A stretch of DNA of 64,000 bases from Ensifer adhaerens (lineage in GTDB: Bacteria; Pseudomonadota; Alphaproteobacteria; Rhizobiales; Rhizobiaceae). The notes beneath the pieces are model-generated. The model saw only the letters and a program-made list of their open reading frames with translations, did no database searches and was not told the origin of the DNA. Every line of letters begins with the position of its first letter. Position 1 is the first letter of the stretch. Both the position numbers and the translations under genes were made by a program. This document shows, piece after piece, positions 46,868 through 49,367 of the stretch. The stretch is from positions 310,001 to 374,000 of the forward strand of contig NZ_LGAP01000001.1 of NCBI RefSeq assembly GCF_001270265.1, given 5' to 3'.

Positions 46868-46943
46868 GCCCTTATAGCTCAGTTGGTAGAGCATCTGATT
46901 TGTAATCAGAGGGTCGGGAGTTCGAGTCTCTCTGGGGGCACCA
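46868..46943 (+). tRNA. tRNA-Thr (anticodon TGT)
   Basis: 76 bases with a full cloverleaf: acceptor GCCCTTA/TGGGGGC, D-stem GCTC/GAGC, anticodon stem TCTGA/TCAGA with loop TTTGTAA, T-loop TTCGAGT, and encoded CCA. The three T-G type pairs in the acceptor are unusual but paired. Its 3' end is repeated downstream (see repeat entry), marking a likely integration site. Confidence 0.95.
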
Positions 46944-47046
46944 TTAAGTTTCGCTGAAAAGCATTGAAAAGCCTCAGTTTTCTGGAAAGCCCAGACTGAG
47001 GCTTTTAAGCCATCAGGTTGTGGCTTGGGGGCACCCTGGGGGCACC
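46932..47046 (+). repeat. Direct repeats of the tRNA-Thr 3' end (candidate att sites)
   Basis: CTGGGGGCACC occurs at 46932-46942 (inside the tRNA 3' end) and at 47036-47046. A one-base variant, TTGGGGGCACC, abuts the second copy at 47025-47035. Copies of a tRNA 3' end just downstream of the gene are what tyrosine-recombinase integration or excision leaves behind. No integrase gene is intact nearby. Confidence 0.6.
46967..47006 (+). terminator. Terminator of tRNA-Thr
   Basis: Perfect 11-bp stem AAAAGCCTCAG/CTGAGGCTTTT (46967-46977 with 46996-47006), ending in TTTT. Confidence 0.8.
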
Positions 47047-47165
47047 TACGCTTTTTCCCGAGATTCGCAAAATATCCACAGATTCCAAGACTCGGGGTCT
47101 AAAGCGCAGACCTCACGATCTGTCCCCGGCGGAACGACGTCGACATCTGCTCGTGGAGTCAAGCT

Positions 47166-47900
47166 TTAGCCAAAATGGATTTTTCCAACCGTTAACGTCC
47201 CGTTGAGATTGAAGCTGCCGGATTGAAAACCTCCCTCATCAAAACCATAGTCTTCGAAGCTCTCGAAAAGATCGCCTTGTTTTAAGGGGTTTTCGCGCAG
47301 AGGAAGTTTTATACGCTTTGCCTTGCTGAGCACAGCATTGCGGGAAAATCCAAGAATGCGGCCGATCTCAGTGCCGGAATAGTAGAACTCCCACAGCATG
47401 CCCAGAACACGAACGGCTTCCTCAGTCCATCTGCCGTGGGTCTTCTTATTGTGGGGCCAGACGACGGGAATGCGACGCTTTTCGATTGCGTCACGGATAG
47501 GCTGCATCCCGAAGGCGTCGAACACTGCGTGTTGGTTCCGAGACATTATCGCGAGCTGATAAAACATGAACGGATACGGCACGAATTGCGCGGCGTTCTC
47601 TCGAAAATACTCGAGCACTCGCCGGTGATCGCTGATCATCGTCCCGCCGCCCGGGAGCAGCATTCCAACTTGGACCGGGTCGCCGACGCCGAAAACGGAG
47701 TTCGAAAGAACATCGATGAAATGGCCGCCAACCGACCCACCGATGAACTCGAAGCCATCGATCTGGTTATAATATTTGAAGTCCTGAATGAAGTATCGCT
47801 GGCCGTCTTCGTGCCTGAAGACAGGAGTGCACAGACCAGGCGCGTCATCTGTAGCACACACGACGCCAACAACTGCGTATCTACCTTCCTCTTCAGACAT
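47166..47900 (-). CDS. Unknown protein with GcrA-like C-terminal helix-turn-helix
   Basis: 244 residues from the ATG at 47900, with AGGGA 5 bases upstream. Residues 1-150 have no domain I recognise ('EEGRYAVVGVVCATDDAPGL', 'YFIQDFKYYNQIDGFEFIGG', 'MISDHRRVLEYFRENAAQFV'). Residues 158-202 align closely to the start of GcrA: W-T-E-E-x-V...L-x-x-L-W, then I-x-x-x-L-G and S-R-N-A-V-x-x-K-x-x-R-x-x-L. GcrA binds CcrM-methylated GANTC and recruits RNA polymerase. The last 40 residues are acidic/Gly-rich. Its start overlaps the end of the upstream gene by 8 bases. The A/T-richer composition suggests transfer. Confidence 0.65.
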   Translation of the reverse strand: MSEEEGRYAVVGVVCATDDAPGLCTPVFRHEDGQRYFIQDFKYYNQIDGFEFIGGSVGGHFIDVLSNSVFGVGDPVQVGMLLPGGGTMISDHRRVLEYFRENAAQFVPYPFMFYQLAIMSRNQHAVFDAFGMQPIRDAIEKRRIPVVWPHNKKTHGRWTEEAVRVLGMLWEFYYSGTEIGRILGFSRNAVLSKAKRIKLPLRENPLKQGDLFESFEDYGFDEGGFQSGSFNLNGTLTVGKIHFG

Positions 47901-48657
47901 TGTATCCCTCGTTTCGGAGGAAGTCTTTGGCCGCTGAGGCGACCACGCCAAACGATTGCTTGGGGTTCCACACGTTGATCTCGTATGCCCTCACTCTAAT
48001 TCCCTGCTTGTCTATGAAGTCTCTGAAGAAAGGGGACTCGAGATATTGGATTGGAACGATCATCGCCTTGAGCAGTCCATTCGCGAATGGCACCGTCTTA
48101 CCCGCTTGGACCTCGATCGTCACGCGACGTTCGTCAGCTCCGCTGCCCACATGCGAGCGCGTCATCTCCATGAAGGCTGTGCTTTCAAAGTCCAGCGTAT
48201 CGATTTCCCGTTCATTCGGTCGAGAGTTGAGGTAGTTCGCATTGTTGTCGAAAAACTTCAGAACGATATCCGCGATCCTGCGCGTATCCGGCTCGATCTC
48301 GAAATCCGCTAGCGCCATTTTGTCGTCCATGAAAGCCTTGAGGAAATCATGGTGCATGGCTCCACTGTCGAACGGATAGATACGTTTGATGTCCTCGATG
48401 AGTTCGAGATCGAAGATGAAACAAACCGGGTATAGGCTCAGCTGGGTCGTCGCCAGATCAGTGAGTCCGTACTTGTAGGCGGCCCGGCCATAGAAGAGAT
48501 AAGTGACTTGCTCATTGAACACCTCGCAGACGTCGTCAGTAACGAGTTCGCCCCGGCGCATGTGCTTGCGAGCAAAGAATCCATCGCACGTGTGGAAAAG
48601 TGGCAGAAACTGGAAGGTCTCGTTGGCGCGGGGCACCTGCTCAGAAAAGGTACTCAT
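47893..48657 (-). CDS. Unknown protein, partner of the GcrA-like gene
   Basis: 254 residues from the ATG at 48657, chosen because AAGGAAAG lies just upstream; the longer frame begins with TTG at 48714. No family recognised with certainty. Notable features: 'FQFLPLFHTCDGFFARKHMR' near residue 16, 'VTYLFYGRAAYKYG' near 51, 'YPVCFIFD' near 76 and 'IYPFDSGAMHHDF' near 93. The order F-H-T...L-F-Y-G-R-x-A-Y loosely recalls ADP-ribosyltransferase-like folds, but this is inference only. It has no signal peptide. It overlaps the following gene by 8 bases and should be co-translated with it. Confidence 0.6.
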   Translation of the reverse strand: MSTFSEQVPRANETFQFLPLFHTCDGFFARKHMRRGELVTDDVCEVFNEQVTYLFYGRAAYKYGLTDLATTQLSLYPVCFIFDLELIEDIKRIYPFDSGAMHHDFLKAFMDDKMALADFEIEPDTRRIADIVLKFFDNNANYLNSRPNEREIDTLDFESTAFMEMTRSHVGSGADERRVTIEVQAGKTVPFANGLLKAMIVPIQYLESPFFRDFIDKQGIRVRAYEINVWNPKQSFGVVASAAKDFLRNEGYNV

Positions 48658-49367
48658 CGACTTTCCTTGGTTGTTCTCCGCTTGAACTTCTACCTGCAGC
48701 GTTTCGTTAGTCAATTGCGGCGACGCACTGACTGGAGGCCTATGTCACCGGCTTCGTCGAAAGGAGCGATTACTCGACGAACGTCCGCAATGCCGCCACT
48801 CCGATGCCCCAACGCGGGCGTCAACAAAGGGTATAGCCGTCATGCAGTTGCAAAGGACGGCACCGACCAGGCTCTCTTGATCTCGGCGTGTATCCACCAC
48901 AGCATTGAAGGAACGATGGCGAACACAGGCGACGACAGGCTTGAGCGATAACCAGGAAGAATTTGACGCACTCCGCAAAGGAGCAGCGTATCCTTTCGTG
49001 AATGAACACGGCAAGGATGCCGAAGGCCTGCGTCGTGTTTGCGAAGACTTCATGCGCCGTTGGCGCGAGACCCGCGGCCCGCATGGAAAAGATGATCGCG
49101 GTCTTATCAACGACGTCGTGCGCTGGACGATGAACCGGTACAATCGGCCGCGCTATAGGCCGAAGCGAAGCCGTGAGGAACGCGCAGCGACCTTCTTGAT
49201 CGCCCCGGAGGCGTTGGGTTTCGCGTGCAAGCCGGCCCGGCTTTGAGGTAGGTCGAATTTGCGGTCGAAACCGGCCGAACGGTTGCCGTATCCGGGCCGC
49301 GGTTTGGACTGATCGGCCTTACTCGGCTGCGCGACGCAGCGCCTGTCCACGGCGGCCCTGTGCGCGC
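48658..49367. other. Right flank of the island; no certain gene
   Basis: About 700 bases between the unknown gene pair and the LysR gene. It should contain the promoter of the leftward pair. One ORF (48905-49246) is listed with low confidence. I found no integrase, transposase or inverted repeat, and the right boundary of the island is not visible as a clean repeat. Confidence 0.5.
48905..49246 (+). CDS. Possible small protein or gene remnant in the island
   Basis: 113 residues from a TTG start with no clear ribosome-binding site. The central part ('EEFDALRKGAAYPFVNEHGKDAEGLRRVCEDFMRRW', shortened here to its key features: acidic helix then R-rich helix) has normal-looking protein composition. 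It is followed by a basic stretch. I recognise no domain. It may be a remnant of a mobile-element gene or a chance ORF. Confidence 0.3.
   Translation: MKERWRTQATTGLSDNQEEFDALRKGAAYPFVNEHGKDAEGLRRVCEDFMRRWRETRGPHGKDDRGLINDVVRWTMNRYNRPRYRPKRSREERAATFLIAPEALGFACKPARL

Follow-up and report, generated by a model that had tools for sequence, protein, structure and literature searches.

Within the window, that is, the whole 64,000-nucleotide stretch of Ensifer adhaerens DNA that was analyzed, two minus-strand genes form an operon inside an accessory segment at the end of a tRNA-Thr gene (Table 1). On the left, flank matches stopped at the tRNA end in the six congeners examined closely (position 46943, at most 46945), and on the right the matches to 15 congeners resumed between 49273 and 49401. 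Because the flanks of the congeners match the window separately, the approximately 2.3 kb between them were inserted at the 3′ end of tRNA-Thr. A full-length relative of the gene 2 product (P0001) was found in none of the 15 congeners, in which the matches covered the helix-turn-helix (HTH) only, and the description of the locus in the first-pass annotation as an accessory and likely mobile cassette was supported by both observations.

The flank-to-flank gap measured about 74 to 212 bases in eight congeners and about 0.4 to 42 kb in the other seven, which suggests an insertion hotspot at the 3′ end of tRNA-Thr. A second copy of the tRNA end was present between the flanks of G005, which lie about 42 kb apart. 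By eye, no integrase was recognized among the ORFs of the insert, and its 113-aa ORF had no plasmid relative by tblastn at E 0.001. The cassette is presumably bordered by NAD kinase and tRNA-Thr on one side and by a LysR gene on the other, and no recognized defense gene adjoins it.

Table 1. Features of the insertion and of the two-gene operon (window coordinates)
Feature	Position	Strand	Basis or remark
tRNA-Thr (TGT)	46868..46943	plus	ARAGORN; 3′ end is the integration site
Inserted accessory segment, right end approximate	46944..49311		Congener flank matches
Cluster of four GANTC sites (99 bp) immediately downstream of gene 2	47062..47160		Site count
Gene 2 (stop included)	47166..47900	minus	ORF, translation P0001, Pfam GcrA
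C-terminal tail of gene 2, residues 205-244	47169..47288	minus	pLDDT <50 at 205-207 and 209-244
GcrA-type HTH of gene 2, cargo domain of the window system	47277..47432	minus	PF07750 and model helices
N-terminal partner domain of gene 2, about residues 1-140	47481..47900	minus	AlphaFold2 model and family profile
Gene 1, 254 aa (P0002)	47893..48657	minus	Upstream of gene 2, overlapping it by 8 bases
113-aa ORF within the insert	48905..49246	plus	ORF list

The GcrA-type protein and the adjoining enzyme

The product of gene 2 is 244 aa long, counted from the ATG at 47900. A GcrA-type HTH had been proposed at 47295-47429 of the minus strand; the ORF is real, the coordinates are right and correspond to residues 158-202 from the ATG, and the C-terminal placement of the motif within the 244 residues was confirmed. 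The Pfam family GcrA (PF07750) matched gene 2 with 30.7 bits against a cut-off of 26.9 (E 5e-7), profile positions 2-54 of 155 being aligned to residues 158-209 of the 245-residue translation, and was the sole family listed up to E 10, a range in which the filters remove most matches above about 0.1. The full-length GcrA equivalog of NCBIfam (NF050816) remained below its cut-off of 280 with 19.2 bits (E 0.0012). Further matches were to the biotin-repressor domain of NCBIfam (E 0.019) and to PHROGs (E 0.0044, a D5-like regulator, and 0.0071). Competing HTH families scored no better than GcrA, and the profile comparison thus supported the proposed identity.

Three helices of the HTH were predicted in the AlphaFold2 model (residues 160-171, 176-183, and 187-196 from the ATG), and the N-terminal domain was modeled as strands between residues 8 and 91 followed by helices. 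A Foldseek search of the PDB with the gene 2 model gave nothing at E ≤0.001, for the N-terminal fold or otherwise; among the best 50 of its 326 matches GcrA was absent, and the TyrR DNA-binding domain was the top HTH with good probability. Against PDB sequences, phmmer with the window protein found GcrA alone and weakly (E 0.016), and the profile of an alignment including the full GcrA fusion of L032 (alignment A5) found GcrA at 2.8e-7.

Members of the GcrA family bind methylated GANTC and activate sigma-70 promoters. The sigma-interacting domain of GcrA was not detected in the window protein, the Pfam match ending at profile position 54 of 155, and the protein appears to hold the DNA-binding half of GcrA only. 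The window genome has its own gcrA elsewhere (219 bits), with which the HTH shares 21 of 46 positions; its identity to frames of 187-188 aa in the 15 congeners was 39-44%. The same domain order was found in the closest relative of the window system, L032 from Bradyrhizobium sp. CSS354, whose second protein carries in the same place a complete GcrA with its DNA-binding and sigma-interacting domains. Because a whole GcrA occupies this place in L032, the HTH of the window protein most likely goes back to a captured GcrA. A chance HTH or an HTH of another class was ruled out by the Pfam score together with the L032 fusion. Apart from the fusion, three GcrA matches in the L032 genome (G308) exceed the cut-off, and one more falls short of it.

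Gene 1 was modeled from 65 aligned sequences with a pLDDT of 94.2 and a pTM of 0.91 (AlphaFold2), and the predicted structure is a DarT-like ADP-ribosyltransferase (ART) fold. Foldseek ranked seven DarT chains and one Tpt1 (tRNA 2′-phosphotransferase) highest among PDB structures, at E 6.3e-4 to 0.069, after which the next match jumped to E 2.1; the TM-scores of these eight on the target were modest (0.28-0.62), so the likeness to DarT is one of fold only. Of the 16 Pfam families that had a match at E 1 in at least one of the 65 gene 1 relatives, none was DarT, which likewise places the likeness at the fold level. No convincing family was found for gene 1 in Pfam, NCBIfam, PHROGs, or PADLOC (best Pfam match MELT at 0.04, best PHROG 0.27), and the family profile had 0 matches among PDB sequences. 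Five matches were obtained in BFVD at E 0.001, the best being a protein of Bacillus phage CP-51 (1.1e-4) and the others coming from giant viruses and phage G.

Residues D97, D175, R177, and E182 of gene 1 are present in 65 of 65 sequences and H22 in all 62 that are ungapped there, and position 58 is R in 52 and K in 13 of the 65. A DarT review names H13, R51, and E160 (PMC9967889). We infer from order and spacing, rather than from a superposition, that H22, R/K58, and E182 of gene 1 correspond to these three.

A family of gene pairs with varied C-terminal domains

Relatives were traced through gene 1, since P0001 itself gave few: none in phages or viral contigs and, among plasmids, three records that match 20-24% of its length, two of these carrying a GcrA annotation. 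The enzyme family was found at 79 loci among 84,980 species genomes (a single search pattern, with 102 matching stretches), in 12 of 72,556 plasmid records (13 and 12 with two other queries), 4 of these 12 being typed as conjugative, and in four viral contigs. By taxon, it was present in 7 of 297 genomes of the family and 13 of 397 of the order, the window genome being counted in both, in 12 of 398 of the phylum (window genome included, five repeating those of the order level), and in 2 of 341 of one Bacillota class, one of which was the center of that search. Relatives of the L032 gene 1 were absent from phage records.

The 98 gene 1/gene 2 pairs that were kept, mostly alphaproteobacterial, consist of 71 of the 79 loci from the species collection and 27 others, namely, the window, 6 loci, 16 loci from further searches, and 4 viral ones. 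Left out were loci at contig ends (L060, L065, and L077), loci with gene 1 or gene 2 truncated or interrupted (L054, L078, L098, and L108), L163, in which the second gene ends early, L166, in which gene 1 is in two pieces at a contig end, and the duplicates (L022=L072, L024=L085, L025=L092, L026=L096, and L140=L036). The plasmid loci L183-L187, of which L187 has a truncated gene 1, are outside the count of 98, as are L021 and L055, at least, where gene 1 occurs without a recognizable gene 2.

The two genes are closely coupled. Among 94 measured pairs, 93 were at most 30 bases apart and 72 overlapped, a spacing that leans close by construction, the choice of gene 2 start having preferred an ATG within 30 bases of the gene 1 stop. 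A common N-terminal domain (N-domain) is present throughout the second proteins, which range from 188 to 1134 aa: in two-fold cross-validation, which is favored by near-identical pairs within the set (L051/L124 and L079/L093), its profile recovered 98 of 98 second genes and 0 of 98 shuffled ones, and the enzyme profile recovered 98 of 98 with no shuffled match. As expected of partners, the distances of gene 1 and of the N-domain were correlated (r 0.73 over 92 rows, six of the 98 having been removed as duplicate or short, here and for the tree; 0.345 for pairs with different cargo), and none of 500 permutations reached as high a value.

Beyond residue 115, the C-termini of the 98 second proteins fall into 42 clusters, a coarse division (E <1e-6 over at least 60 residues) that lumps the SpoT protein (L083) and the TPR protein (L097) with a class of about 900 aa via the stretch before the cargo. 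Pfam scans covered 84 of the 98 proteins, for 78 of them as the best 25 of 28 families. Fifteen clusters had a recognized member, and in the other 27, all but three of which were reached by the scan, no homologue was recognized. The second proteins of about 900 aa with an unrecognized fold are L030, L068, L084, L086, L087, L089, L092, L100, L101, L104, and L110. A protein of 243-244 aa with a conserved unrecognized C-terminal domain also recurs (L044, L051, L061, L070, and L124).

Copies of ordinary cell proteins are the cargo of 10 of the 98 systems. According to Pfam, these are GcrA (the HTH in the window and the complete protein in L032), whole ribosomal protein S9 (L059 and L071), full SpoT with HD, synthetase, TGS, AH/RIS, and ACT domains (L083), full MurC (L151), a cold-shock domain (L074), an acyl-AMP ligase (L109), and an SNF2 helicase (L064, with a RapA_C match below the cut-off at E 0.041). 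The tenth, the IF2 C-terminal domain of L073, was below the cut-off by Pfam alone, and was assigned from an alignment of 90 residues, 76% identical, with an 850-aa frame of its own genome that was taken as IF2. Other cargo comprises a LuxR-type HTH (L144 and L147), RES (L042), FecR (L039), Z1 (L102), TPR (L097), an FGE-sulfatase domain (L123), and a STAND NTPase (L164 by Pfam, with which L161 and L162 cluster). In ten second proteins the first cargo residue lies between 139 and 175 (GcrA 158 and 168, S9 139 twice, FecR 153, LuxR 151 and 146, IF2 154, MurC about 150, and cold shock 175), and the cargo begins later in STAND (196), RES (211), SpoT (about 282), and the AMP ligase (287). An assembly chimera was rejected as the general cause of such fusions, those with S9 being found in two genomes (58.5% identical proteins) and those with GcrA in two.

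Different cargo is borne by similar enzymes, and it is this pairwise identity that shows the exchange of cargo. Gene 1 of the SpoT system is 64% identical to that of L101, of the 900-aa class, and 62.5% identical to that of the TPR system L097; the corresponding values are 47% between the IF2 and cold-shock systems, 48% between the cold-shock system and L142, and 47% between an S9 system and L062. The gene 1 tree, built by a quick method with SH-aLRT support only (92 rows), pairs the window with L032 (support 100) and places the SpoT system within the set of TPR and 900-aa systems (support 93, drawn open). The fewest cargo-label changes on this tree were 43 for 44 labels, the possible minimum, so each cargo class can have a single origin and there is no sign of repeated uptake of one cargo.

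A normal host gene was present besides the cargo copy in seven of the seven genomes checked (gcrA in the window genome and that of L032, S9 in two genomes, SpoT, MurC, and IF2). Identity between cargo and host protein was 73% and 81% for S9, 66% for MurC, whose host copy is an open frame of 470 residues, 63% for SpoT, and 48% for the L032 GcrA. The 63% of SpoT, over 732 positions, is unevenly distributed (TGS 83%, synthetase 69%, HD 59%), and the hydrolase motifs LHDTIEDTEA, KLADRLHNM, and THPLEV of the host read IHGGSAETEA, KLAARLHEM, and SSPAAI in the fused protein, which is altered in the FGFRVI region of the synthetase as well. We take the altered motifs to be catalytic. The fused MurC keeps its P-loop, and on visual inspection the copies of MurC, S9, and the cold-shock domain seem mostly intact, so that SpoT is the one copy that points to a dead mimic.

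The neighborhoods of the pairs were scanned over 134 ORFs, called by length alone, after 3 of 137 had been dropped for size. Among the best 25 of 118 and of 120 families, counted without a control set, were MzaE/AIPR (9 ORFs), AbiU (9, best E 9e-25, perhaps the same ORFs), phage integrase (6), mad3 (3), PbeA (3), and type IV restriction (3). In L030, the gene 2 of the 900-aa class follows Z1, PD-(D/E)XK, and AIPR genes annotated as an Mza cluster.

Possible functions of the exchangeable cargo

From this arrangement we infer the toxicity of gene 1, its inhibition by the N-domain, a bait function of the cargo, and a phage trigger, in the following scheme. The ADP-ribosyltransferase would probably be a toxin to its own cell, and the N-domain of gene 2 probably binds gene 1 and restrains the enzyme. 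The C-terminal domain would be an exchangeable bait, which in at least ten systems copies a host protein. A phage or another invader acting on that host protein, by binding or altering it, would also strike the bait copy; the N-domain would then release the enzyme, nucleic acid or protein would be modified, and the infection would be stopped. That the GcrA HTH of the window is the cargo of such a toxin-partner-bait operon of two genes, most likely working as bait, is our leading, still tentative, interpretation.

We favor a bait as the single best explanation on three grounds: similar enzymes differ in their cargo, the cargo that was checked duplicates a normal gene of the genome, and in SpoT the copy has changed catalytic motifs. 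STAND and FGE domains occur in immune sensors, and their presence as cargo was counted in its favor, as were the MzaE/AIPR, mad3, type IV restriction, and phage integrase neighbors. Against it count the recognition of host-protein mimicry in only a minority of clusters; MurC, acyl-AMP ligase, and FecR, which are not obvious phage targets; RES, helicase, and Z1 cargo, which could be active effectors; and the single origin of each cargo class that the tree allows. So do the retention of only the HTH half of GcrA in the window, the systems L021 and L055, at least, with their gene 1 lacking a recognizable partner, and the absence of either window gene from the PADLOC models (no match up to E 1), along with the position of the cassette away from defense genes.

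The main rival, which we consider unlikely, is an antitoxin that mimics the target: the ART would attack a host protein, and gene 2 would protect as a copy of it. The operon has the layout of toxin-antitoxin pairs, and the host proteins represented by the cargo exist separately in the same genomes, as this scheme would have it. However, with enzymes 47-64% identical bearing different cargo, the target would have to switch upon a moderate change of the enzyme, and the nearest solved folds to gene 1 are nucleic-acid-acting enzymes.

It is improbable that gene 2 serves as an address, taking the enzyme to a machine such as RNA polymerase or the ribosome. GcrA, S9, IF2, and SpoT all touch one or the other, and the association of several cargoes with them fits such a role, as do the TGS domain as the best-kept region of SpoT and the SNF2 helicase, which could be RapA-like, its RapA_C match below the cut-off notwithstanding. 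MurC, acyl-AMP ligase, FecR, RES, and FGE domains, however, do not fit.

Still less probable is a reader of methylation or autoregulator, in which the HTH would bind methylated GANTC and control the operon or compete with GcrA. The HTH match above the Pfam cut-off and the LuxR HTH cargo of two systems speak for it, and so does L032, where both GcrA domains are present and GANTC occurs three times within 150 bp upstream of the operon (L032 5904-5969), the most among 77 systems counted; these sites would, however, be coding if gene 1 has a longer start. GANTC is missing from the 150 bp ahead of the window operon, and the four-site cluster downstream of gene 2 is only suggestive as a signal, since 287 of 5000 uniform random placements (about 6%) produced at least one such cluster in the window. 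Judged from site counts, the GANTC evidence on autoregulation is mixed. The first-pass annotation had suggested that the cassette may read host GANTC methylation or compete with GcrA; of this reading, the GcrA identity and the accessory nature of the locus held, whereas GANTC reading or competition as the general logic of the cassette did not, the same slot in relatives being filled by S9, SpoT, MurC, IF2, cold-shock, and LuxR domains and most recognized cargo not being DNA-binding.

The least probable alternative is a cargo that is itself the active effector, with the ART-like protein as its regulator or modifier, as RES, SNF2, Z1, AMP-ligase, and MurC could be enzymes but the SpoT catalytic motifs are altered, neither S9 nor the IF2 fragment nor a lone HTH is an enzyme, and the invariant residues sit in the ART.

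With somewhat less confidence than is given to the bait in the window, the pairs may together be an immune-system family built like plant NLRs, carrying spliced copies of the host proteins that invaders attack, with the list of cargo as a readout of phage targets. If the bait explanation is true, integrated decoys made from host proteins exist in bacteria, each system names through its cargo a host protein worth attacking, and genomes would reveal phage targets in the cell cycle (GcrA), the ribosome (S9 and IF2), the stringent response (SpoT), and the cell wall (MurC). Under the rival explanations, too, there is a conserved ADP-ribosyltransferase with a partner bearing whole housekeeping proteins, and the architecture makes a concrete set of tests possible. 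No description of such an architecture was found among the papers listed by searches of an open-access library with few subscription papers and no bioRxiv preprints, judged by titles and abstract openings.

Comparison with known systems

The pair resembles DarTG in the DarT-like fold of gene 1, whose conserved H, R/K, and E presumably correspond to the DarT residues, being arranged in that order, and in being a two-gene operon in accessory DNA. It differs in having no Pfam DarT match in gene 1 and in the partner, which has a new N-domain with exchangeable cargo in place of a macrodomain: the window protein matched GcrA alone, and neither macrodomain nor NADAR was among the best 25 of 28 Pfam families of 78 second proteins. 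From GcrA itself, to which it is linked by the HTH at residues 158-202 and by the two GcrA domains of L032, the window protein differs in that the HTH is C-terminal to a foreign domain and is an extra copy beside the true gcrA. The Mza defense genes (AIPR and Z1) are represented by nine MzaE/AIPR ORFs among the 134 neighbors; the pair also occurs without Mza and is not in PADLOC.

Panoptes, PARIS, and PrrC-EcoprrI are described as using decoy nucleotides or sensing anti-restriction proteins (PMC12657218 and PMC12409349). They share with the proposed scheme a two-component logic in which a restrained toxin is freed by a protein of the invader, but as described there they have no varied housekeeping copies fused to one conserved domain.

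A counterpart in architecture lies in another kingdom and in other proteins, and here a separate ART is the putative output. To our knowledge, integrated host-protein decoys are known only from plant immune receptors. In plant NLR receptors with integrated decoys, a conserved part is fused to varied copies of host proteins, and the same combination of a conserved core with varied host-protein copies is seen in 10 of the 98 systems, with the host copy found in seven.
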